The notes: generated from the sequence alone by a model not told the origin. DNA of 40,866 nucleotides from Candidatus Poribacteria bacterium (GCA_003635305.1 PYJE01000112.1:7614-48479); one strand, 5' to 3'; shown: positions 1-40,866, counted from the first letter of the stretch. Numbers and translations are program-made.

Positions 1-15
1 TGCGTCACTAGTTAG

Positions 16-133
16 GGCGAGGGCCTGTCCTTCGCCGTGTTCAAAATGTTCTGCGTCACCGTAGGGCGAGGGCCTGTCCTTCGCCGTGCTCAAAATGTTC
101 CGCGCACTGTAGGGCGAGGGCCTGTCCCTCGCC
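16..133 (-). repeat. Three family-A palindromes, ~49-nt period
   Basis: Three near-identical imperfect palindromes sit at 16-36, 65-85 and 113-133. They match the reverse complement of the family core GCGAGGGACAGGCCCTCGC found at 27216-27428. They are separated by related spacers reading roughly 'gtgttcaaaatgttctgcg'. They lie just before folA and translate as GRGPV(L/P)RR, so the 204-residue ORF in the track has a spurious N-terminus. Function unknown; REP-like elements are the nearest known analogy. Confidence 0.85.
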
Positions 134-3099: not shown

Positions 3100-5214
3100 A
3101 TGGCTGATAAGAAGGACAACCCCCAACAACGCTTGGAGCTGCCGCACGTGCGAAACATCGGCATCATGGCGCATATTGATGCCGGCAAAACGACGGTGAC
3201 CGAACGGATTTTATACTACACCGGCCGCGTCTACCGTATCGGTGATGTTGACGATGGCACGACGGCGATGGACTGGATGGTGCAGGAGCAGGAGCGCGGC
3301 ATTACGATTACCGCCGCCGCTACTACCTGCCACTGGAAAAAGCACCACATCAACATCATTGACACACCGGGGCACATCGATTTTACCGTTGAGGTAGAAC
3401 GCTCACTGCGCGTCCTTGACGGTGCCGTCGCTGTCTTCTGTGCTGTCGGCGGTGTTGAACCGCAATCCGAGACAGTCTGGCGACAGGCGGATAAATACGA
3501 CATCCCGCGCATCGCGTTCGTCAATAAGATGGACAGAACCGGCGCAGACTTCTTCCGCACCGTAGAAATGATGGAAGAACGCCTCGGCGCGATGGCGATT
3601 CCGGTGCAACTCCCTATCGGCTCCGCTGAAGGGTTTAGCGGCATCGTCGATCTCATCGCCATGAAGGCGCAGTTGTGGGATACCACAACCGGGGATGGCT
3701 CTGTCATCCATGAGACAGACATCCCCACCGAGATGGAAGCGATGGCGAACGAGTATCGTGAACGGATGCTTGACGCTGTTGCCGAATCGGATGACGAACT
3801 CTTAGAAAGGTATCTTGACGGCATTGAATTGTCGCCAGCCGAGATTAAATCCGGCTTGAGAAAGGCTGTGCTGCACGGCAAAACCGTGCCGGTCTTGTGC
3901 GGAACCGCTTTGAAGAACAAGGGTGTCCAGCCGTTGTTGGATGGCATTGTCTCCTATTTGCCGGCCCCGACAGATGTGCCGCCGATTGTGGGTGTGAACC
4001 CGCGGACAGAGGCGGAGGAGATTCGGCAGGCAAGCGACAAGGAACCGTTCTGCGCGCTGGCATTCAAAATCATGACAGACTCGCACGTCGGCAAACTCAC
4101 CTACGTCCGTGTCTACTCCGGTGTGCTGAAGAAAGGCGATACCGTCTACAACAGCAAACGCGGCAGGCACGAACGCATCGGCCGCTTGATGCAGATGCAC
4201 GCCAACAAGCGCGAGGAGCATCAAGTTGTCTACGCAGGCGACATCGCCGCTGTCATCGGATTAAAGGATATTGCGACAGGCGAGACGCTCTGCGATGTGA
4301 AGCAGCACATCACGCTGGAGACGATGGATTTCCCTATGCCTGTCATGGCTATTGCCATTGAACCGCGCACGCAATCGGATATTGACAAACTCAACCTCGC
4401 GCTATCAAAACTAGCGGAGGAGGATCCGACGTTTAAAGTGCATCAGGATGCAGACACGGGACAGACGCTGCTCTCTGGCATGGGTGAGCTGCACCTTGAG
4501 ATTATCGTAGACCGGCTGGTTCGCGAATTCAACGTCTCGGCGAACGTCGGGAATCCGGAAGTGGCATATCGGGAGACGCTCCTTGAACCTGTCAAATCGG
4601 TAGGACGCTTCGTGCGGCAATCCGGTGGCAGGGGACAATTTGGACACGTCGTGATTGAGGTTGAACCGCTTGAGAAAGGCGGCGGCTTTGTGTTCACCGA
4701 CGAAACGAAAAGCGGTGTCGTCCCTCAGGAATACATCCCTGCGGTGCAGAAAGGCATTGAGAATGCGATGAATACCGGCGTGTTGGCAGGCTACCCTGTC
4801 GTGGACGTATCGGTGCGGCTGGTAGACGGTTCACACCATCCGGTGGATTCCTCGGAAATAGCGTTCGGCATCGCTGCTTCTATGGCATTTAAAGATGCGA
4901 TGAGGCGCGCGAACCCGACGCTCCTGGAACCGATGATGGACGTTGAAGTCATCGTCCCGGACGAATACCTTGGGAAAGTCATCGGCGATCTGAATTCCCG
5001 ACGTGCGCAGATTCGTGAAACGGTTCAGCACGATGCCGGGCGACAGATAAAATCGCGTATCCAGCATATTCTCGTTGACGTGCCGCTGTCAGAAATGTTC
5101 GGCTATGTCAAGACGCTGCGCTCTCTGACACAGGGACGGGCGAACTACTCGATGGAATTCTCGCACTACAGCGAGGTGCCGCCGAGTATGATGGAAGACT
5201 TAATTGGTAAGTAG
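3100..5214 (+). CDS. fusA: Elongation factor G
   Basis: Translocation and recycling GTPase, 704 residues, full length. G1 AHIDAGKT is at 24-31, the switch region with EQERGITIT at 63-71, G3 DTPGH at 88-92, and G4 NKMD at 142-145. Domains II-V follow, including [13 protein letters not shown] (domain II), GMGELHLEI (domain III) and GRGQFGHV (domain IV). It lies 30 bases after rpsG in the usual str order, with AAGGAC before the ATG. Nothing suggests a specialised paralogue. Confidence 0.97.
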
Positions 5215-5239
5215 GCGTAAAATGGGCATGAACCCGTAG

Positions 5240-5259
5240 CGCGAGGAAGCTTCCTCGCG
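5240..5259. repeat. 20-bp perfect palindrome between fusA and tuf
   Basis: CGCGAGGAAGCTTCCTCGCG is a perfect 20-base palindrome in the 78-base fusA-tuf spacer, preceded by 'gta'. Its arms (CGCGAGG/CCTCGCG) and flanks match the family-A palindromes, so it is probably a diverged copy. No T-tract follows, so it is not an intrinsic terminator. Confidence 0.8.
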
Positions 5260-5292
5260 AACGCCGAGTTCAACTAGCAAAGGATAAAAAGA

Positions 5293-6492
5293 ATGGCTAA
5301 GGAAACTTTTGAAAGGACTAAGCCACACGTCAATATTGGCACAATCGGCCACGTCGACCACGGTAAGACGACGCTCACGGCGGCGATTACTATGGTGCTT
5401 TCCAATCTCGCCAGCAAAGACTACGTCATGACGTATGACGAAATTGACAAGGCACCCGAGGAGAAAGAGCGTGGCATTACAATCAACACGGCACACGTTG
5501 AATACGAAACCGAGAATCGGCACTACGCGCACGTGGACTGCCCCGGACACGCGGACTACATCAAAAACATGATTACTGGTGCCGCGCAGATGGACGGCGC
5601 AATCCTCGTCGTCTCTGCTGCAGACGGACCGATGCCGCAGACGCGCGAACACGTGCTCCTCGCACGCCAGGTCAACGTTCCCTCTCTCGTTGTCTTCCTC
5701 AATAAGGCAGACATGGTGGATGACGACGAGCTGCTGGAGCTCGTGGAATTGGAAGTCCGCGAACTCCTCACGGAATACGAATTCCCCGGCGACGATGTCC
5801 CTATCATCGCAGGCTCCGCGCTGGAAGCAATGGAAGCCGCTGGCAGCCCGGATAGCGACGCGTGTAAACCTATCCGCGAACTGATGGAAGCCGTTGACGA
5901 ATACATCCCGGAACCTGTCCGCGATACTGACAGGCCGTTCCTGATGCCGATTGAAGATATCTTCACCATCAGTGGACGTGGCACGGTTGTCACTGGACGC
6001 GTTGAGCGCGGTGTCATTCACACCGGCGATACTGTCGAAATTGTCGGACTCCGAGAGACGCAGGACACCGTCGTCACCGGTGTAGAGATGTTCCGCAAAC
6101 TCCTTGACCAGGGGCAAGCGGGTGACAACATCGGCGCGCTGATTCGTGGCATCGACCGGGATGAAGTGGAGCGCGGACAAGTCCTCTCGATTCCAGGAAC
6201 AGTCACACCGCATACGAGGTTTGAAGCGGAAGCCTATATCCTCACGAAGGAAGAAGGCGGACGCTGGAACCCCTTCTTTAGCGGATACCGGCCGCAGTTC
6301 TACTTCCGGACGACAGACGTTACTGGGAAAATGGATTTGCCGGAAGGCATTGAGATGATTATGCCGGGCGACAATGCGCAGATTACGGTAGAGCTCTCCA
6401 AACCGATTGCGATGGAGGAACAACTCCGATTCGCTATCCGCGAAGGTGGGCATACCATCGGTGCCGGTGTTGTCTCCAAAATCCTTGAATAA
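5293..6492 (+). CDS. tuf: Elongation factor Tu
   Basis: Delivers aminoacyl-tRNA to the ribosome; 399 residues, full length. GHVDHGKT is at 19-26, [10 protein letters not shown] in switch I, DCPGH at 82-86 with the catalytic His at about 85, and NKAD at 137-140. Domains II and III follow ([24 protein letters not shown]) and the C-terminus is [17 protein letters not shown], where His replaces the common Arg. AAAGGAT precedes the ATG. It closes the str block; rpsJ follows 66 bases later without a terminator. Confidence 0.98.
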
Positions 6493-6558
6493 TGCTGCTG
6501 TCTGGCCCCAGAGCGGCCCCGCAACGCCGCTTTGGGGTTATCTGTAAAGGATGCAAAC

Positions 6559-6870
6559 ATGGACAACCAAAAGATTCGCATTCGGCTCAAAGCTTTTGAC
6601 TACCGGCTGTTGGACCTGTCGTCAAAACAGATAGCGGATACCGCCAAACGCACAGGCGCAGCTGTCTCCGGACCGATTCCGTTGCCGACGAAGAAGCATA
6701 TCTATACTGTCCAGCGTTCGACTTTCAAAGACAAGAAGTCGCGGGAACAATTTGAGATGCGGATTCACAAGCGGTTGTTGGATATCCTCGAAACGACACC
6801 GAAGACCGTGGATGCTTTGATGCGCTTGGACCTGCCCGCTGGGGTGGATGTGAAAATCATCTTGTTGTAA
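6559..6870 (+). CDS. rpsJ: 30S ribosomal protein S10 (uS10)
   Basis: Part of the 30S head and, in other bacteria, a NusB/NusG partner in antitermination. From ATG 6559 the protein has 103 residues ([19 protein letters not shown]), the standard length. The ORF-track start at 6532 adds nine atypical residues and is rejected. AAAGG at 6546-6550 precedes the ATG. Motifs GPIPLPTK and [16 protein letters not shown] are clear. It is the first gene of the S10-type block, here fused to the str block. Confidence 0.96.
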
Positions 6871-6908
6871 GCGTTCGCGCTTGGCTGGATGTGCAGAGGA
6901 GAAGGAAA

Positions 6909-7553
6909 ATGGTGAACGGAATCATCGGACGAAAAGTCGGCATGACCCAGGTTTTCGAGGAATCCGGGAAAGTGGTGCCTGTTACCGTCATTGAAGCGGG
7001 CCCCTGTCCGATCGTCCAATTGAAAACGCAAGAGAGAGATGGGTATGAGGCTGTCCAGTTGGGGTTCGGCGAGCGGAAAGCGAGCCGGACGAACCGGCCG
7101 CGGCAGGGACATTTTGCGAAGGCGCAAGTTGAACCGACTTGGGTGCTCCGCGAGTTCCGTGTGAAAAGTCTCGCCGAGGTAACCGTGGGCAGTGTTGTTG
7201 ATGCCGGTCTCTTTTCGGAAGGCGAGCTCGTTGACGTGAGCGGCACCTCGAAAGGGCACGGCTTCACCGGTGTTGTCAAACGGTGGGGTTTCGCGGGCGG
7301 CAAGAAGAGCCACGGTGGTGAGCAGGACTTGCGTCGTCCTGGTTCTATAGGTGCGAGCGCGACTCCATCACGGGTTTTCAAAGGCAAACGGATGGCGGGC
7401 CGCTATGGTGCGAAACGGCATACCGTCCAAAATTTACCGGTTATCCAAGCGGATGCCGAACGGAATTTGCTTGTGGTGAAGGGAGCGGTTCCGGGCCCGC
7501 CGAATGGGCTCCTGCTCATCTGGAAGGCTTCCAAATCGGCACCGGAAGCATAA
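6909..7553 (+). CDS. rplC: 50S ribosomal protein L3 (uL3)
   Basis: Early-assembling 23S rRNA-binding protein; 214 residues from ATG 6909, after a purine-rich AGAGGAGAAGGA. N-terminal [13 protein letters not shown] and the extended-loop motif [23 protein letters not shown] are diagnostic. The Gln methylated by PrmB in E. coli is replaced (GASAT versus GQNQT), so that modification is not expected. It ends 12 bases before rplD. Confidence 0.96.
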
Positions 7554-22789: not shown

Positions 22790-23725
22790 CTAACCCGCTT
22801 CAAACAGACGCGTTTGCGACGAATACTCCTCAATCCTTTCGTTAGCGAGCGCGATATACTTTTCCTCAACGTCATAACCGATATAGTGCCGCCCGGCTTT
22901 CAACGCGCTCAAGCAGGTTGTCCCACTGCCACAAAACGGATCCAACACGACATCGCCTTCAAACGTATACAACTGAATCAGGCGGTGCGGCAACTCTTCC
23001 GGAAACGGCGCGGGATGCCCGATGCTTCTCGCCGAGGCTGCAGAGAAAGTCCAGACACTTTTCGTCCATTCCAAAAAATCCTCTTTGCGGATGGAGTTCG
23101 GTTTGCCGTTGCGTTTCCGCGAGAACGTATCCTTAGAAAAGACGAGGATGTATTCGTGGATATCCCGCAGCACCGGATTCGCCGCTGACATCCAACTCCC
23201 CCATGCCGTTGATGAGCCCGCGCTTGAACCTTTGTCCCAGATGAGCTCCCCGCGCATATAGTAGCCAATCTCCAGCATATCTTCGATGATATAGTTGTGC
23301 AACGGAATGTAGGGTTTCCTTCCTAAATTCGCGATATTAATGCAGGCTCTGCCGCCTGTCACCAATGTCCGATACGTCTCGGCGAAGACGGCCCTAAGCA
23401 GCTCCCGATACTCCGCCAGCGATAAATCGTCGTCGTATTCCTTCTTCGCGTTATAGGGAGGCGAGGTTACCATCAGATGGACGCTTCCGTCGGGAATTTC
23501 GGTCATCTGCTCGCTGGTTTTGCAATAGAGGCGGTTTAGCGTTTCTGCCGGAATCGGGTTTTCTATCCAGGTGTCGGGTTCTGTCAGTTGCTGTCCTGCG
23601 TAAAGTTGGCTATTGTAAAACGCGCTGGAATCGTGCGCGACTTTTTTCGGCATTCCGAACGCGCTGGTTTGGGTGCCGCGCTGTTTTGAGTTTGGATTGG
23701 GGTTGTTCATAGTTTTCTGAGTCAT
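22790..23725 (-). CDS. Beta-class site-specific DNA methyltransferase
   Basis: Transfers a methyl group from S-adenosylmethionine to adenine-N6 or cytosine-N4 in a short DNA site. With the start at 23725 it has 311 residues; 23710 is an alternative and neither has a clear binding site. The ORF start at 23800 runs through a family-A palindrome (GGGQAPAL) and is rejected. Catalytic motif IV TSPPYN is at about 87-92 and the AdoMet motif DPFCGSGTT at about 262-270. This order, catalytic first and AdoMet-binding last, defines the beta class. No restriction endonuclease is adjacent, so it looks solitary, perhaps epigenetic or anti-restriction. Base type and target cannot be read from sequence. Confidence 0.88.
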   Translation of the reverse strand: MTQKTMNNPNPNSKQRGTQTSAFGMPKKVAHDSSAFYNSQLYAGQQLTEPDTWIENPIPAETLNRLYCKTSEQMTEIPDGSVHLMVTSPPYNAKKEYDDDLSLAEYRELLRAVFAETYRTLVTGGRACINIANLGRKPYIPLHNYIIEDMLEIGYYMRGELIWDKGSSAGSSTAWGSWMSAANPVLRDIHEYILVFSKDTFSRKRNGKPNSIRKEDFLEWTKSVWTFSAASARSIGHPAPFPEELPHRLIQLYTFEGDVVLDPFCGSGTTCLSALKAGRHYIGYDVEEKYIALANERIEEYSSQTRLFEAG

Positions 23726-23761
23726 CTCATTGAGCCGTGCGGTACCACCCTTGGAACGTAG

Positions 23762-23831
23762 GGCGGGGGCCTGTCCTCCGCCATGCTGCGGTTTGTTCAT
23801 GAATCAACGCTTGCGAGGGACAGGCCCTCGC
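23762..23831. repeat. Two family-A palindromes in opposite orientation
   Basis: One copy at 23762-23782 (GCGGGGGCCTGTCCTCCGC core) and one at 23813-23831 (GCGAGGGACAGGCCCTCGC) face each other across about 30 bases. They lie between the VWA gene and the methyltransferase. Confidence 0.8.
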
Positions 23832-24952: not shown

Positions 24953-25450
24953 TTACCGTCTCTTTTTTTGGAAAAGAATGCCCGCGAGATTCCGCTCCCT
25001 ACCGCACCGGTCTGTCTGAACCGTCAACCCTCCACCAAAGGACACTTTGAGGCCTTGTTTTTTCTTCCTCGGGTTTGTCCACTTAATACCTCTGCCATGG
25101 AAAAGAATTGGAACGTAGATGGGTTTTGACCGTGGCAAGGTCGAAACAATTTGGCGGGCGAAATTCAGACTATTTTCTGTCTTTTCAATTACGTCCGATT
25201 CGGGAGCTTTGCCGCTCTTGAGTTCAATGGTTGCCACAAAGAGGAAACTCTGATCCCTAAAGAAGAGTAGCCGGTCGCACCGTTTCTCAGTCTTTTTGCG
25301 CGAATCAAACTCCGTTTCCAGATTGACGACAACTAGCTCTCTTGGCAAGCCATCCATGTCAACCTTGCAACCCTCTCCGCCACACGAAGTGACAAGACTC
25401 TCTTTGTTAAATTGCGCGCTGATGTCCTCAAGCGCTTTACGCTCATTCAT
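24953..25450 (-). CDS. Small PD-(D/E)xK-like nuclease partner of the ATPase, copy 1
   Basis: 165 residues from ATG 25450, which overlaps the ATPase stop by 8 bases, so the two are translationally coupled. No named family is recognised. Visible features are GCKVDM at 27-32, CDRLLFF with D59, the strand FVATIELKSG giving E76-x-K78, ILFHGRG at 115-121, and a basic C-terminus with RCGRERNLAG (148-157). D59 plus ExK about 17 residues later, on successive strands, is the usual layout of PD-(D/E)xK nucleases; a nuclease role is inference. The paralogue at 38953-39462 conserves all these motifs. Possibly a defence effector; a non-catalytic adaptor cannot be excluded. Confidence 0.7.
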   Translation of the reverse strand: MNERKALEDISAQFNKESLVTSCGGEGCKVDMDGLPRELVVVNLETEFDSRKKTEKRCDRLLFFRDQSFLFVATIELKSGKAPESDVIEKTENSLNFARQIVSTLPRSKPIYVPILFHGRGIKWTNPRKKKQGLKVSFGGGLTVQTDRCGRERNLAGILFQKKRR

Positions 25451-26951
25451 GCGACTGATTATCCTCCGTTTGAACAAGCCAGTTTTGGAGGCGTGCCGAA
25501 CGATTGTAGAGGTCTGACGCTACGTCAATGTATTCCTCCGGATCTACGCCATCAACGCGATTGTATTCAATCTCCGTGACGATTCCATCGGGTTGAAAAC
25601 GCCAGACACCGACCTCTTCTTTTTCAAGCGTTACCGGTGATTCGCCGTAAGGTTTGCCTAACTTTTCATCCAACTCTCCCTCACGAATGAGGTTTCCGAT
25701 TTCTTCAAGGAAGCCGCCGCTGTGCGTTGTGACTACCACGCGCACCCCGGCTTTCACGAGGCGCGCGAGTGCTACCGCTACTTCGGGCTGCGCACCGGGA
25801 TGCAAATGCGATTCCGGTTCCTCAATGATGAGCGTATCGCCGGGGCTGATGATACCGCGGATAAATAGGACCAGCGGCGCGAGTTCGGATACCATAGAGG
25901 AGGCGTTGCTCAGGCGAATCTCCTCTTCCATTCCTCGTGGACGATAGAGGAATTGCGGATATCCACTCGGTGAAGGTTTCATGATTACCTCCCCTGCAAG
26001 CACATCATTTTCCAAAGCCTCGGCAATAGCAACCATGTCATTAGCCGGTTCTTTATGTGGACTATAGAGTATGAGGTTTTGCAGGAAGTCTGCAACCCCG
26101 GTTGAAAATGTTGGAACTTCAGGTAAGCGTTCAAACCCCGCGCGAGTGGAACGTGCCACAAGCGAACTTGCGATGACTGCTTGACCTTGTAGGATTCCAC
26201 TGCGATTAGCGGGTAGGTAAAACGGCTCTCCTGAATCTATGATAGGACTACCGAGAGGATTGCGTCTGATAGGACTATCGTGACGGTAACTACGCGATTC
26301 AAAGTGTGGAGTCTTGTCCAACCCCGGCGCATACTCAGAGCGAAGGGGGGCATCTCCGTTGATGGCTCCATGGACAGTGACATCTGATTCGGCAATCTGC
26401 ATGTTAAAGTTCCAGTGAAGTAAATCTTCCTCGCTTACTTCCACTTTGATGGCAGTGTCATGGCGATGCCCTTTGACTGAGTGTCTCATCTGCGAAACAG
26501 ACTCAAGATCGAAGCAGGTTTCAAATTCCTCCCTGAATCTTTGGGGAATGTTGAAATTTGATTCAATCTCCGCGCGGAGTTCCTGTGGTAGATGTGAGAA
26601 CTTTAACGGCTTCTCCGCCGTTTTTAGTTTTTCAAATACGGCGTAAAGCTTCTCGTCGCGACTATTGCCTCGCAAAAAATGGTTGGAATCTAATAATGCT
26701 CCCCGCCTAACGCGAGATTGCCAAGGAGAGAAAACCTCAATCTGTGGGAAAGGAATAGGTGGAAAACCAACAAAACTCCGGTGCAACGTATAAAGCAGCG
26801 TGGCGAAATAGGTTTTCCCAGTGTTACTCGGACCGACAAACACTGTCAGTGGACGCAAGTCAACGGTGCCTTCCACAATCGGACCGAAATTCCGCACGGC
26901 GATTTTGACGTTCGGATGTTTGGGGGCATCGATGGTTCTTATCTTTTTCAT
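25443..26951 (-). CDS. OLD/AAA15-21-type ATPase of a two-gene module, copy 1
   Basis: 502-residue ABC-type P-loop ATPase of the RecF/OLD-like class. Walker A is GPSNTGKT (40-47), the signature-like segment SSMVSELAPL (351-360), Walker B LIIEEPESHLHP (374-385), and the switch His TTHSGGFLEEIGN (H410). The region between Walker A and the conserved YLPANRSGI block (245-253) is variable relative to copy 2 and could be the sensor or partner-binding insert. It lacks a Toprim domain; the nuclease function is probably supplied by the small downstream protein, whose gene overlaps it. A consensus promoter lies about 190 bases upstream. Confidence 0.85.
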   Translation of the reverse strand: MKKIRTIDAPKHPNVKIAVRNFGPIVEGTVDLRPLTVFVGPSNTGKTYFATLLYTLHRSFVGFPPIPFPQIEVFSPWQSRVRRGALLDSNHFLRGNSRDEKLYAVFEKLKTAEKPLKFSHLPQELRAEIESNFNIPQRFREEFETCFDLESVSQMRHSVKGHRHDTAIKVEVSEEDLLHWNFNMQIAESDVTVHGAINGDAPLRSEYAPGLDKTPHFESRSYRHDSPIRRNPLGSPIIDSGEPFYLPANRSGILQGQAVIASSLVARSTRAGFERLPEVPTFSTGVADFLQNLILYSPHKEPANDMVAIAEALENDVLAGEVIMKPSPSGYPQFLYRPRGMEEEIRLSNASSMVSELAPLVLFIRGIISPGDTLIIEEPESHLHPGAQPEVAVALARLVKAGVRVVVTTHSGGFLEEIGNLIREGELDEKLGKPYGESPVTLEKEEVGVWRFQPDGIVTEIEYNRVDGVDPEEYIDVASDLYNRSARLQNWLVQTEDNQSHE

Positions 26952-27165: not shown

Positions 27166-27215
27166 GCCAAAATTCACTTTTAGGAGATTCATGTTCTCCT
27201 CATTAGGTTGAGTGT

Positions 27216-27428
27216 GGCGAGGGACAGGCCCTCGCCCTACAGGTGCGCGGGATGCAGGTGGCTTGGCGAGGGACAGGCCCTCGCCATACGGATTAGCGAA
27301 AGTTGATGCTTGGCGAGGGACAGGCCCTCGCCCTACGGGTGCGTGGGATGCAGGTGGCATGGCGAGGGACAGGCCCTCGCCCTACGAATTAGCGAAAGTT
27401 GATGCTTGGCGAGGGACAGGCCCTCGCC
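27216..27428 (+). repeat. Tandem array of five family-A palindromes with alternating spacers
   Basis: Five identical palindromes (core GCGAGGGACAGGCCCTCGC) start at 27216, 27265, 27312, 27361 and 27408. Steps alternate 49, 47, 49, 47, so the true unit is a 96-base pair of repeats. Odd spacers read about 'gggatgcaggtgg', even spacers 'ttagcgaaagttgatgctt'. Because the spacers repeat, this is not CRISPR. It sits between the BNR lipoprotein 3' end and the promoter of ATPase module 1. Confidence 0.92.
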
Positions 27429-27452
27429 CTACGGAACCAAGACGTTATTCCC

Positions 27453-36828: not shown

Positions 36829-36855
36829 AAGCACCGATGAGTATTGGAGGCGATT

Positions 36856-37461
36856 ATGGCAACCGCTGCTGCTTATGCTTACATCACGCCTGAAGAATAT
36901 CTGGACTTGGAGCGCGAGGGCACGACGAGAAACGAATACCGCGATGGGGATATCTTCGCGATGGCGGGTGCGAGCCGAGCACACATTCTTATCACGGCGA
37001 ACATCGCGGGGGAACTCCGTTCCCGGTTGAAAGGCAGAACTTGTGAAGTCTACCCGATTGATATGCGGGTGCGTGTGAGACAGACAACGCTATTCACTTA
37101 TCCGGATGTTGTTGTCGTATGTGGTGAACCGCGCTTTGAGGATGACGTATTTGACACGCTTCTCAATCCAACGCTTATTGTAGAGGTGCTGTCGCCTTCG
37201 ACGGAGGCTTATGACAGGGGTGAGAAATTTGCGCGCTTTCGGCAACTCGCATCGCTGCGGGAATACGTTCTCGTCGCGCAAAAAGAGGTGCATGTAGAAC
37301 GTTATCTGCGGCAAGGCACACAGTGGCTACCGAGCGAATTTCGTTCTCTTGACGATGTGCTGCGGCTTCTTTCCATCAATTGCGAGTTGCCGCTACGTGA
37401 GATTTATGAGCGCGTCACATTTCCTAACAGCGGCGCGCAACCAAGATTGGATATCCTCTGA
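36856..37461 (+). CDS. Uma2-family (DUF820) PD-(D/E)xK nuclease-like protein
   Basis: 201 residues from ATG 36856 after TTGGAGG; the TTG at 36844 is the track start. MATAAAYAYITPEEYLDLER and EYRDGDIFAMAGAS..H..I..NI are the usual Uma2 N-terminal features. The nuclease core shows YPDVVVVCG with D84, LIVEVLSPST with E110, and a Lys at about 124 (DRGEKFARF) in the migrated position. The family is abundant in cyanobacteria and some other phyla; its biological role is poorly defined. It ends 26 bases before ATPase copy 2 and may belong to that operon. Confidence 0.88.
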   Translation: MATAAAYAYITPEEYLDLEREGTTRNEYRDGDIFAMAGASRAHILITANIAGELRSRLKGRTCEVYPIDMRVRVRQTTLFTYPDVVVVCGEPRFEDDVFDTLLNPTLIVEVLSPSTEAYDRGEKFARFRQLASLREYVLVAQKEVHVERYLRQGTQWLPSEFRSLDDVLRLLSINCELPLREIYERVTFPNSGAQPRLDIL

Positions 37462-37487: not shown

Positions 37488-38966
37488 ATGACGAGCAAAA
37501 TCAGCGACATTCAGCAGCATCCGAACGTCGAAATATCGGTGAAGAATTTCGGACCGATTGCCGAAGGCACTGTTGACTTACGTCCGTTGACAGTATTCGT
37601 CGGGCCGAGCAACACCGGCAAGTCCTATTTTTCGACGTTGGTGTATGCGTTGCAGGGTGTGTTCAAAAGTTTTTCTAGTTTTGTGTTTTTCGCGGCATTG
37701 ATAAAGGAGTTACGGTACCGGCTTTTTTCGGCTGCTTCAAGTCCTGAAAAGGAAAAAATGGAGCGTCTGTTGAAAAAGTTAATCACTGCAGAGGGCCCGT
37801 TCAAATTGTCAGAGCTGCCGAGTGACACGCGCGCCCTTTTACAAAATATTGTTAAGCATTCGGAGACGTTCGGGGACGAATTCCGGGGCACGCTCCTAGC
37901 AGAGTTGAAAAACTGTTTTGATGTAAAGTCCGTCTCAACCTTAGTCCGGTTGAATGAGGAACGGATTGCTAATGAACTGATGGTTTCTCTGAAAGTGAGG
38001 GAGGAACATCAAACGCTTTGGAACATCAGAATGGCTGTTTCCGATTCCGATGTTATTTTCGACTGGGGTGTCCCTGACCGGATGACTCTCACCTCGGTGG
38101 GGCGAGTTGAGTTGATGGATGCCGGTTTCGCGAAGATCGAACGGTGGACAGAGCCAGTGGGTAGGCGGTATTATCTCCCCGCTGTGCGGAGCGGCATCAT
38201 GCAGAGTCATCGAGTTATGGCAAGTTCGCTTGTAAAGCGCGCTACCCGGGACGGTTTAGAGTGTTATCCAGAGGTTCCTACCTTTTCAAGTGTCATAGCC
38301 GAGTTGATGGAGAAAATCATCCGCTACGAGGAAGACGCGAACGCTGATGGTGATATGAGACACCTTGCAGAAACATTGGAATCTGATGTGCTTTCTGGCG
38401 AGATACGCTTGAAGCCATCCGCGAGTGGGTATCCCGATTTCCGCTACCGGCCACAAGGGACAAAAGCGGATATGCAGATCGGACAGGCCTCGTCCATGGT
38501 ATCTGAGCTCGCGCCGTTAGTGCTGTTACTCCGCAGCGGCATCAAACCGGGTGATACGCTCATTATTGAGGAACCAGAAGCACACCTGCATCCCGGTGCC
38601 CAAACCGATATAGCGATTACCCTAGCGCGCTTAGTCCGTGCCGGTGTGAGAGTCATCGTGACAACGCACAGCGATTGGCTCCTTGAACAGATAGGTAATC
38701 TCATCCTTGAAGGCGAGTTGGAGAAGCAGGTTGGAGAAACCAATGCGCCGCCGGTTTTTCTTCACAAAGAGCAGGTTGGATGCTGGCACTTCCAGAAAAA
38801 CGGAAAAATCGAAGAGATTGCGTACGACCGGATGGATGGCGTAGAGCCACAGGAATACGCGGACATCGCAGAAAGCCTCTATAACCGTTCAGCGGAACTC
38901 CACAACCGCCTTGAGGAATTGCGGTTGAATACGGAGACAGTTCAGGGAATTGATGGAAAGAAGTGA
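37488..38966 (+). CDS. OLD/AAA15-21-type ATPase of a two-gene module, copy 2
   Basis: 492 residues, paralogous to the protein at 25443-26951. Walker A is GPSNTGKS (39-46), the signature-like segment SSMVSELAPL (335-344), Walker B LIIEEPEAHLHP (358-369), and the switch His is in VTTHSDWLLEQIGN (H394). The first ~55 residues and the last ~270 align closely with copy 1. The segment of about 55-225 differs in sequence and in length, apart from short matches such as the CFD(L/V) motif. GAGGGGAG precedes the ATG. Its 3' end overlaps the small nuclease-like gene. It probably senses or is triggered by a cue and licenses the small protein; that is inference from layout. Confidence 0.85.
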   Translation: MTSKISDIQQHPNVEISVKNFGPIAEGTVDLRPLTVFVGPSNTGKSYFSTLVYALQGVFKSFSSFVFFAALIKELRYRLFSAASSPEKEKMERLLKKLITAEGPFKLSELPSDTRALLQNIVKHSETFGDEFRGTLLAELKNCFDVKSVSTLVRLNEERIANELMVSLKVREEHQTLWNIRMAVSDSDVIFDWGVPDRMTLTSVGRVELMDAGFAKIERWTEPVGRRYYLPAVRSGIMQSHRVMASSLVKRATRDGLECYPEVPTFSSVIAELMEKIIRYEEDANADGDMRHLAETLESDVLSGEIRLKPSASGYPDFRYRPQGTKADMQIGQASSMVSELAPLVLLLRSGIKPGDTLIIEEPEAHLHPGAQTDIAITLARLVRAGVRVIVTTHSDWLLEQIGNLILEGELEKQVGETNAPPVFLHKEQVGCWHFQKNGKIEEIAYDRMDGVEPQEYADIAESLYNRSAELHNRLEELRLNTETVQGIDGKK

Positions 38967-39462
38967 AATGCTTGAACACATTAGGAAGGCGATAGGTTCA
39001 GAAAACCTGACTCCGCTGCGGAGCCGAGCTGGATGCCGTGTAGATATGACAGGTGCGCCTTCTCCGCGAGTTGTAGTCGACGTAGATGTGGCGTTCCCCG
39101 CGCATGGAGTCGCCGGGCAGAAATGTGACTATATTCTCTTTTATGTTGATGCGGCGCAAAATCTTGTCGTCGTTCCGATAGAACTCAAGCGCGGCAGTGT
39201 TAACATATCCCAAGCATTGAGCCAGTTACAAGGCGGCGCAGATTTCGCGGCGCGCTTCGTCCCGGCGCGGCGGAATTGTCATATTATCTGCCGCCCGCTG
39301 CTCTTCCACGGCGGCCGTGTTCATCACCTGAAGCAGAAGCGGAAACGGAGAAACGAACGGAGCCGCGCCACCGTTCGCTTCCGTGGCGGCGACTTTCACA
39401 TTAAAACGGCGCGCTGCGGCAGAACGCGCAATTTAGCCAATGGGTTGTTCGCGGAAAGTTAA
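38953..39462 (+). CDS. Small PD-(D/E)xK-like nuclease partner of the ATPase, copy 2
   Basis: 169 residues from ATG 38953, overlapping the ATPase stop by 14 bases. This start makes the offset to GCRVDM (27-32) identical to copy 1, which supports it over ATG 38968. Conserved features are KCDYILFY with D59, VVVPIELKRG with E77-x-K79, PLLFHGGR at 115-122 and RCGRTRNLA at 154-162, with a strongly basic stretch (KQKRKRRNERSR) before it. The spacing of D59 and ExK matches copy 1. Function as a metal-dependent nuclease is inferred from the motif only. A ligase-like gene starts 2 bases downstream but is probably unrelated. Confidence 0.7.
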   Translation: MERSEMLEHIRKAIGSENLTPLRSRAGCRVDMTGAPSPRVVVDVDVAFPAHGVAGQKCDYILFYVDAAQNLVVVPIELKRGSVNISQALSQLQGGADFAARFVPARRNCHIICRPLLFHGGRVHHLKQKRKRRNERSRATVRFRGGDFHIKTARCGRTRNLANGLFAES

Positions 39463-39464
39463 CC

Positions 39465-40866
39465 TTGAAACATGCTAAGCACATTCTCCCCATCCTCCTT
39501 TGTCTCGGGCTCGGCGTAATTATTGGGCACTACGCTGGCACACCCCTCCCACTTCTCTGCATGCTTGCCGTGATAGGAGCCTTTGTTTTTATTGACATGG
39601 AGCTCGCTGTCTATGTGCTGTTAATCGCGCTCCCGTTCTCGTTCCGTTACATCCTGCCAGGCCGCTTTGAAATTCAGACACCGACGGAGCCGCTGTTAGG
39701 CATGCTCGTCGCGGTTTATTGGGTGAAAAAGAGCGTCGCGTTCTCGCAAGGAAAGCGTGCCTCTAACGCGCACACCGCTGTAAAAGAGACGTTTCCATTC
39801 CTCGCACCGCTCTGCTGCTATATCTTTATCACGTTCCTATCTGCAGTCAATACGCCAGTTCTCTTCGGCACTCTCAAAGGCGCGACGCGCGCGACTGTCT
39901 ACATAATGTTCAGTTTGGTGGTGTATGCAGTGTTCAGGCCTCGGGGCATCGGGCTGTTGCGGAACAGGCCCACGGCCGACGACGCGGGAAGCGTGTTGAG
40001 GGATAGAGCTTCACGCTACGATGAAAGGTGCTTGTTCGTCGGTGGGAGACAGTTGAGGCGGCTTTTTATCGCCACCTTCCCTACCGCTGCCATCGCTGTC
40101 ATTTGGACGCTCTTCGTGCTTATCTACCACATTGACGAATGGCAGTGGACGAGCGCGTATCGGCATGCGCCGTTTACTAACTACTCCGTTTACGGTTCTT
40201 TCACCGCCATCTTTTTTCTCATCTGCCTGAGCCGCCTGCTTTTCGATACCACGCCTTACGACAAGGTGCTATGGATAGGGTGGTTTGCCTGCTTCGGGCT
40301 TGGGCTCATGATGTGCTTTTCGCGCGGCGTTTGGCTTTCGGTTCTCATCGCTGTCGTGTTTATGTTGTTGCAAGTCGGTAATCGGAACAAGCCAGCAGCG
40401 CGGGCAAGTGGCGTGACGCGTAAAAAGATTCTCTTCATCGGTGCCGCCGGCCTGATTTTATTAGTATGCCTTAACTTGCCGGGCGTTTACGGCATCGTCA
40501 TGGAGCGGATTGCCACCACCGTGGACATCAGTTATGCCTCCAACCGGGCGCGGCTCCTCCGATGGGCACAGGCGATGACAATGTTCCTTGAAAATCCTGT
40601 TTTAGGAAAAGGTTACGGTGCCTTCGCCATGCTTTACGAAGAAGATGTCGCGCTTGTCGGGACATACACAGCACAGTTCCAACTCGGCGCGCACAGCGAA
40701 TATCTGCAGGTGCTGGCAGAATTAGGCATTGTCGGCTTCATCGCATGGTTATGGCTCAACCTTGCATTCCTCCGTTACGGGTTTCGCTCTCTCAAACGGA
40801 TGAACAGCCCATCAGACAGTTTTTACCGCGCCATCGTCATCGGACTCATGGCATCCGAACTCTCGC
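39465..40866 (+). CDS. O-antigen ligase/polymerase-family membrane protein (3' end outside window)
   Basis: Open frame from TTG 39465 to the window edge, about 467 codons, not in the ORF track because it has no stop here. It has many membrane segments. Near the end are SNRARLLRWAQAMTMFLENPVLGKGYGAF and GAHSEYLQVLAELGIVGFIAWLWL, the His-containing periplasmic loop and following helix typical of Wzy/WaaL proteins. Such proteins polymerise O-antigen or ligate it to lipid A-core. A hydrophilic loop (about residues 165-200, RNRPTADDAG...RDRASRYDER) is encoded partly by a diverged family-A palindrome at about 39991-40016. GGAAAG lies about 8 bases before the TTG; the start is uncertain. Confidence 0.8.
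   Translation, partial: MKHAKHILPILLCLGLGVIIGHYAGTPLPLLCMLAVIGAFVFIDMELAVYVLLIALPFSFRYILPGRFEIQTPTEPLLGMLVAVYWVKKSVAFSQGKRASNAHTAVKETFPFLAPLCCYIFITFLSAVNTPVLFGTLKGATRATVYIMFSLVVYAVFRPRGIGLLRNRPTADDAGSVLRDRASRYDERCLFVGGRQLRRLFIATFPTAAIAVIWTLFVLIYHIDEWQWTSAYRHAPFTNYSVYGSFTAIFFLICLSRLLFDTTPYDKVLWIGWFACFGLGLMMCFSRGVWLSVLIAVVFMLLQVGNRNKPAARASGVTRKKILFIGAAGLILLVCLNLPGVYGIVMERIATTVDISYASNRARLLRWAQAMTMFLENPVLGKGYGAFAMLYEEDVALVGTYTAQFQLGAHSEYLQVLAELGIVGFIAWLWLNLAFLRYGFRSLKRMNSPSDSFYRAIVIGLMASELS

Follow-up and report, generated by a model that had tools for sequence, protein, structure and literature searches.

The stretch of DNA analysed here (the window, 40,866 nucleotides, with positions counted from its first letter) raises the question of whether two adjacent genes that recur on one contig in diverged form work and evolve as a single unit, or whether their parts have had separate histories. 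The window belongs to a Candidatus Poribacteria MAG of 4.35 Mb (213 contigs, 87% complete), and thus to a phylum best known from marine sponges. Each of the two pairs, referred to as copies A and B, combines an ATPase gene with a small gene:

37488..38966, + strand: copy B ATPase, OLD/ABC-type P-loop, 492 aa, ATG start (ORF and BLAST to copy A)
38950..39462, + strand: copy B small protein, predicted PD-(D/E)xK nuclease, 170 aa (TTG)
25443..26951, - strand: copy A ATPase, 502 aa
24953..25477, - strand: copy A small protein, predicted PD-(D/E)xK nuclease, 174 aa (TTG)

The initial annotation had proposed a second, diverged copy of the module on the opposite strand, which is confirmed (24953-26951 versus 37488-39462). 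The ATPases share 46% identity over 494 columns (E=1e-140) and the small proteins 33% over 168 columns (E=1e-26), so that the likeness is not due to chance; the ATPase starts face each other at a distance of ~10.5 kb. An identical overlap had also been claimed, and indeed both copies overlap in the same relative frame, whereas the lengths differ: 14 nt in copy B and 8 nt in copy A when counted from the alternative ATG starts of the small ORFs (at 38953, giving 169 aa, and internally at 25450, giving 165 aa, respectively), and 17 and 35 nt when counted from the upstream TTGs. As anticipated, the nucleotide-binding motifs are intact in A and B (Walker A GPSNTGK, the YLPAxRSGI block, the signature-like SSMVSEL motif, Walker B LIIEEPEAHLHP, and TTHS), and so are the conserved residues C29, C59, D60, E78, K80, G82, and C156 of the small proteins (copy B numbering, from the TTG). 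Inactivating changes, which would speak against two working modules, were looked for and seen in neither copy; the gene pair is real and intact. The picture of two copies holds for the window but falls short for the genome, which carries six complete pairs, two on the window contig and one each on contigs C193, C40, C119, and C7. That the copies do not stem from a recent duplication is borne out by copy A, whose every segment lies closer to a homologue from the same genus (G027_L115) than to copy B. Since the middle parts of the two ATPases are only ~10-40% identical over residues 60-220, the suggestion that A and B respond to different triggers or act on different targets stays plausible.

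The following features of copy B are needed for the further argument:

37602..37625, + strand: Walker A GPSNTGKS, residues 39-46, within a conserved N-terminal block (~14-57)
37659..38507, + strand: exchangeable middle cassette, ~residues 58-340, putative sensor/insert region (in-place replacements; site 1 identity profile)
38490..38672, + strand: conserved segment with SSMVSEL (335-341), Walker B TLIIEEPE (357-364), and H-loop TTHS (392-395)
38685..39462, + strand: effector cassette, i. e., ATPase tail (from ~residue 400) plus nuclease gene, usually co-inherited
39127..39189, + strand: predicted catalytic residues D60, E78, and K80 (small-protein alignment)

Both ATPases match AAA_15 and AAA_21 in Pfam (copy B, AAA_15, E=1.3e-20) as well as the PADLOC profiles PD-T4-4_A (copy A, E=1.2e-29; copy B, E=2.2e-32) and PDC-M47A (E=1.6e-23 and 2.5e-27, respectively). 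Residues G39, N42, T43, G44, and K45 are invariant in 36 aligned ATPases; over the larger set, the Walker A lysine is present in all 129 sequences with a letter at this position, E362 in 132/132, and H394 in 131/132, and the signature reads SSMVSEL, not LSGGQ. A structural model built on 36 relatives, with a mean pLDDT of only 71 and thus of moderate confidence, has Septu PtuA and retron Ec78/Eco7 PtuA as its nearest solved structures (E 7e-10 to 1e-7), followed further down by OLD nuclease, SMC heads, and GajA. A fused Toprim nuclease domain is absent, as Pfam finds AAA domains only and both ATPases end shortly after the ATPase core. None of the four window proteins carries an AbiEii nucleotidyltransferase signature; there is only the generic AAA_21 match, a Pfam entry whose label reads 'putative AbiEii toxin'.

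The small protein has a near-invariant D...ExK motif. Among 30 aligned relatives, C29, E78, K80, and C156 are invariant and C59, D60, and G82 nearly so, and in 118 small-protein sequences D/E60 is found in all, E78 in 117, and K80 in 116, with C29 and C156 near-invariant; C59 is likewise near-invariant and a CGxxxNLA motif marks the C-terminus. Pfam returned no family above threshold, HNH gave no match in Pfam or PADLOC, and a PDB sequence search yielded nothing meaningful. Weak HSDR_N matches occurred in 3/30 members (best E=0.0024), and Foldseek with the AlphaFold model (pLDDT 91) placed mostly restriction endonucleases among its top, non-significant matches (best E=0.07). Taken together with the D...ExK pattern, these similarities make a PD-(D/E)xK nuclease the best reading of the predicted protein. 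Among defence-system profiles, PD-T4-4_B matches the copy A protein weakly (E=0.0018) and copy B not at all, PDC-M47B matches copy B weakly (E=0.0073), and AriB matches neither; across the 30 members, PDC-M47B finds up to 19 (best E=1.2e-7), and the best PD-T4-4_B match has E=1.1e-4. The three conserved cysteines may possibly bind a metal.

Pairing of the two genes is the rule throughout the phylum, in which 62/85 genomes carry at least one ATPase copy (E<=1e-40; 0-6 per genome), with six each in the window genome and its single congener. The loci analysed comprise 135 stretches around the copies of the phylum together with the other copies of the window genome, and a further 80 loci from an independent collection, mostly Poribacteria but also some Caldilineaceae, Nitrospirales, Spirochaetia, cyanobacteria, and others. 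A small gene lies directly 3' of the ATPase in 131 of 142 Poribacteria ATPase loci and overlaps it in 114 of these 131, in support of the earlier proposal that the two genes work as a unit. Two of the unpaired ATPases lie at contig ends and several are followed by degraded nuclease remnants; the nuclease is, for example, cut by the contig end at L137, and truncated or internally deleted at L145, L158, and L173. Different effector genes were considered for the nuclease-less loci, and inspection revealed nuclease remnants at some of them and no recognisable new effector. The ATPases themselves come in two size classes: four of the six in the window genome, those of L009, L010, L011, and L012 (398-416 aa), have a much shorter middle than the window ATPases (492-502 aa), and in other genomes both classes are found at one chromosomal site. 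More distant OLD-like ATPases (E 1e-7 to 1e-4) were also observed in the window genome, on contig C33 at ~18.4-22.5 kb (L016; three within ~4 kb), on C106 (L015), and elsewhere.

Co-evolution of cognate pairs as whole proteins, which the initial annotation had expected to surface as congruent trees, did not hold up. The check was run on 72 complete pairs (FastTree for the ATPase alignment), and the trees are incongruent: of the 39 ATPase splits with good support, 24 are contradicted by a nuclease split that is also well supported. The two distance matrices are nevertheless correlated (Mantel r=0.53; permutation maximum 0.21), and a sliding window locates the shared signal in the C-terminal part of the ATPase, which from ~residue 400 onward does track the nuclease, whereas the rest does not. 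Residues 443-482 correlate with the nuclease at r=0.73 (0.61 as a partial correlation that controls for the remaining ATPase), as compared to partial correlations of -0.26 to 0.12 for windows within residues 1-362; within the nuclease, no decay of correlation with distance from the ATPase was found.

The cause of this conflict is mosaic exchange, which can be read directly from the DNA. L030 and L039 represent one chromosomal locus in two species, with ~85% identical DNA from 3739 to 7242, apart from one ~320 bp break before the ATPase; the ATPase tail and the entire nuclease are then unalignable, and the 85% identity resumes 18 bp past the nuclease stop. The same replacement of tail plus nuclease is seen in L062/L072, L097/L100, L035/L040, and L044/L045. 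The reverse case is provided by L084/L094 and L066/L080, in which the middle is replaced and the flanks, part of the N-terminus, the tail, and the nuclease are kept. Across each switch, the flanking DNA is alignable at ~77-91% identity, and the single-contig genomes G046, G083, and G084 carry different cassette combinations, which argues against assembly errors as the origin of the switch points. Given the conservation of the flanks on both sides, alleles of the same site in other cells are favoured as donors over paralogues located elsewhere. A mosaic pattern was also noted beyond Poribacteria in the Caldilineaceae loci L083, L085, and L089; L085 and L089 have cores of 52%, tails of 93%, and nucleases of 90% identity.

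Clustering the loci by their flanking DNA reduced them to few chromosomal sites, the two largest being site 0 (40 loci in 35 genomes) and site 1 (35 loci in 35 genomes). Cassette types were assigned at set identity thresholds, namely 45% for both middle and nuclease and 60% for the tail, and on this basis the 29 complete pairs of site 1 fall into six middle types and two effector types (19:10). Middle and nuclease type are independent of each other (mutual information 0.072, permutation mean 0.114, p=0.91), with every middle type seen more than once pairing with both nucleases, and tail type equals nuclease type in 29/29. The border is sharp: for pairs of loci with the same middle, identity in residues 381-400 is 0.89 irrespective of whether the nucleases are of different or the same type, but in residues 401-420 it is 0.49 for different and 0.78 for same nucleases; more generally, identity over residues 361-400 is the same whatever middle or nuclease type is present. 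Each of the trees for middle, nuclease, and either flank is rejected by the data of the others, by roughly 1500-2500 log units, as compared to a loss of 333 log units for the nuclease data on the tail tree and of 271-448 that the two flanks cost each other (the AU p-values were computed with 5000 replicates, below the program's advice, and the log-likelihood gaps are relied on here). Nuclease type requires at least 8-9 changes on the flank trees, no fewer than in shuffles, and changes once on the nuclease tree; one locus (G048_L122) with a long branch in the upstream-flank tree probably has a misplaced flank, and the downstream-flank tree gives the same result. At site 0, the identity switch comes later, at ~residue 440, and here too the end of the ATPase follows the nuclease (tail versus nuclease, p=0.0008; middle versus nuclease, p=0.12). 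The co-inheritance of tail and nuclease could in part reflect physical linkage.

The sites are also found empty, and cleanly so. The upstream neighbour gene of site 1 is present in 56 of 58 genomes of the family, and in 8 of 12 unoccupied genomes examined the site 1 flanks abut with a junction of 21-123 bp; occupied sites contain ~2.4 kb, made up of a leader of ~430 bp followed by the ATPase and nuclease genes, and this segment runs to 18 bp past the nuclease stop. The neighbours at shared sites are ordinary, unrelated genes (at site 1, judged by eye only, nucleotidyltransferase-like, oxidoreductase-like, and large transporter-like genes). Carriage of the Poribacteria family by prophages or mobile elements was considered and rejected, as viral contigs hold only distant kin (<=35% identity over long matches), and phage and plasmid records likewise returned only distant relatives. 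In the window's own genus, the flanks of L012/L116 and L011/L118, shared by the window genome and its congener, are 84-90% identical; tails and nucleases are far more diverged than the ATPase core and belong to different effector types. At a third shared site (L009/L117), nuclease and tail are 85-87% identical and the middle 67%. As no syntenic orthologues of copies A and B were found, the evidence for exchange comes from these other sites and not from the two window copies. The middle of copy B clusters loosely with those of loci bearing other types of nuclease, which would fit an exchange, at identities too low for proof.

The window is a housekeeping neighbourhood (SecY, S4, RpoA) rather than a defence island, and it contains no RNA families or tRNAs. 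Three genes close to the copies deserve mention:

36844-37461, + strand: Uma2-family endonuclease-like gene (Pfam E=2e-33; PADLOC candidate PDC-S03 E=1.7e-27)
22790-23800, - strand: lone N4/N6 DNA methyltransferase (PADLOC MTase_II E=7e-127), close to copy A
39465-40865, + strand: O-antigen ligase-like gene (Wzy_C)

The Uma2-like gene stops 26 bp short of the copy B ATPase on the same strand and is possibly co-transcribed with copy B, and the first possible start of the Wzy_C gene lies 2 bp past the copy B nuclease stop. The genes checked on either side of the methyltransferase encode a VWA protein and a FadL-like porin, neither of them a restriction enzyme. An array of REP-like hairpin repeats (TGGCGAGGGACAGGCCCTCGCCCTACG, ~48 bp spacing) occupies 27215-27434, just upstream of copy A, and one further REP-like block is located at the left end of the window (13-133); a 124-bp piece has 72 matches in the genome.

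In view of these observations, we consider it probable that the copies are abortive-infection-type ATPase-nuclease modules with a sensor middle and a docking tail, whose cassettes are exchanged separately. An OLD/ABC-type ATPase dimer would hold the small PD-(D/E)xK nuclease on its C-terminal tail, and when a cue from the phage acts on the part that separates Walker A from the signature (~residues 58-340), the state of the ATPase would change and the nuclease would in turn be switched on. The nuclease would then cut nucleic acid, possibly RNA by analogy with the WonAB system (see below), and the cell would be stopped. Sitting at fixed chromosomal sites between ordinary genes, the modules would be subject to homologous exchange that replaces the ATPase middle and the unit of tail plus nuclease separately, the switch points lying within the conserved ATP-binding segments and shortly after the stop codon of the nuclease; trigger and effector, both diversified by recombination, would be joined by a common ATP-binding engine. 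It is the kinship with WonAB that suggests a role in phage defence.

Other readings have to be weighed against this one. That whole cognate pairs are inherited together and co-evolve over their full length, with the tree conflict being noise from short proteins, could draw on the nearly universal pairing (131/142) and the positive matrix correlation far above the permutation maximum, but is scarcely tenable in light of the strongly supported conflicting splits, the in-place DNA replacement between intact flanks, the likelihood tests, and the sharp identity step at residue 400; at sites 0 and 1, it is refuted by trees, likelihood tests, and DNA breakpoints. Only slightly more credit can be given to a DNA-repair or housekeeping complex of the SbcCD/SMC type, for although the ATPase model also resembles SMC heads, the patchy occurrence (0-6 copies per genome, 62/85 genomes), the clean empty sites, and an exchange pattern unlike that of housekeeping genes make such a role most improbable.

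Two further explanations concern the mode of action of the nuclease. An addictive toxin-antitoxin pair, in which the ATPase neutralises a nuclease toxin, would be in line with two overlapping genes, one of them a likely nuclease, and with loci that combine an intact ATPase with a degraded nuclease; we regard it as improbable, as the toxicity of WonB needs WonA and its ATPase motifs, so that WonA is no simple antitoxin (PMC12137116), and as the AbiEii nucleotidyltransferase signature is missing from the four window proteins. A DNA restriction enzyme that is steered by the ATPase and acts on incoming DNA without killing the cell deserves somewhat more weight, yet still appears unlikely: the D...ExK stretch weakly resembles N-terminal domains of HsdR (best E=0.0024, 30 members), restriction endonucleases are among the top (non-significant) fold neighbours, and a lone methyltransferase gene lies near copy A, but no methyltransferase is conserved with the pair, the neighbours at shared sites are unrelated, and WonB leaves chromosomal DNA intact (PMC12137116).

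Beyond the abortive-infection reading, we give even chances to the idea that the sites are combinatorial immune loci, at which sensor-middle and effector/tail alleles, shared across species, reassort freely at fixed positions under balancing selection. If so, what is seen at site 1, where two deep alleles of the effector (19:10) are dispersed across the flank tree and six middle types vary independently of them, would reflect how phages have driven the diversification of a bacterial immune receptor made of two parts. ATPase-nuclease systems of the WonAB/PD-T4-4 type are known to act as pairs. As to what senses the phage and what links the sensor to the nuclease, one orthologous site in dozens of species offers a natural domain-swap experiment, in which the exchange borders mark where the ATPase can be divided into trigger and effector, in agreement with the surface on which the nuclease is modelled to dock in WonAB; modularity of sensor and effector thereby becomes directly testable. 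The site also shows, for an uncultivated phylum, a defence-like locus that recombines and is polymorphic across species. Earlier work has dealt with an enrichment of sponge symbionts in other defence genes (PMC5099237), and defence genes in such organisms are thus unsurprising as such. An OLD-type ATPase with a PD-(D/E)xK nuclease is likewise a known kind of pair; for the expansion and the mosaic evolution, no description was found in the literature searched.

Kin of the pair are WonAB, PD-T4-4, and PDC-M47, all of them known or candidate systems of phage defence. WonAB, from the WASA-1 prophage of Vibrio cholerae, is a two-gene operon of an OLD-type ABC ATPase and a small PD-(D/E)xK-variant protein that acts by abortive infection and requires both proteins, including the ATPase motifs and the nuclease lysine (PMC12137116). 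WonB is toxic only with active WonA, translation is stopped while chromosomal DNA stays intact, and WonB has been modelled on the dimerised C-terminal extensions of WonA; variation among relatives affects Inserts 1 and 2 and the C-terminal extension of the ATPase and, in some cases, the nuclease as well (PMC12137116). Compared by description, the Poribacteria pair shares the two-gene layout of an OLD-type ATPase with intact motifs and a partner with PD-(D/E)xK-type catalytic residues, and the segments that vary among WonAB relatives are those exchanged in Poribacteria. The exchange borders coincide with the division of WonAB into an insert-bearing middle and a C-terminal extension plus nuclease. 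What sets the Poribacteria pair apart from WonAB are C29, C59, and C156 of the small protein, all near-invariant, its C-terminal CGxxxNLA motif, and its presence in multiple chromosomal copies rather than in a prophage.

With the E. coli system PD-T4-4, which protects against phage T4 (PMC9519451), and with PDC-M47, the pair has in common the gene order, the ATPase profile matches (2e-32 and 2.5e-27, respectively), and the PDC-M47B/PD-T4-4_B profiles that match part of the small-protein family; it differs from PD-T4-4 in that the small-protein match is weak and copy B goes unmatched by PD-T4-4_B. In distant relatives from plasmids and phages, D-x-K (LDLKS, FDQKS, GDLKS) mostly takes the place of the E-L-K of Poribacteria. 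Septu PtuAB and retron Ec78/Eco7 PtuAB resemble the pair in combining an ATPase, the best structural neighbour, with a separate nuclease effector. PtuB is an HNH nuclease, in contrast to the D...ExK partner found in Poribacteria, where a retron was not seen either. Unlike classical OLD nucleases and Gabija GajA, the ATPases have no fused Toprim domain (AAA only in Pfam); unlike PARIS (AriA-AriB), the pair shows no match to the Toprim-type AriB and has a D...ExK partner; and in comparison with AbiEii type IV toxin-antitoxin systems, the nucleotidyltransferase signature is lacking and only generic AAA_21 is matched. As to the mode of evolution, domain shuffling is familiar from hsdS of type I restriction systems. 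Polymorphic toxins combine a conserved framework with variable cassettes exchanged by recombination (PMC3482391). The Poribacteria modules resemble both in this framework-and-cassette principle, but what they swap is either the middle of an ATPase or its tail plus nuclease, within a two-gene module that sits at a fixed locus.
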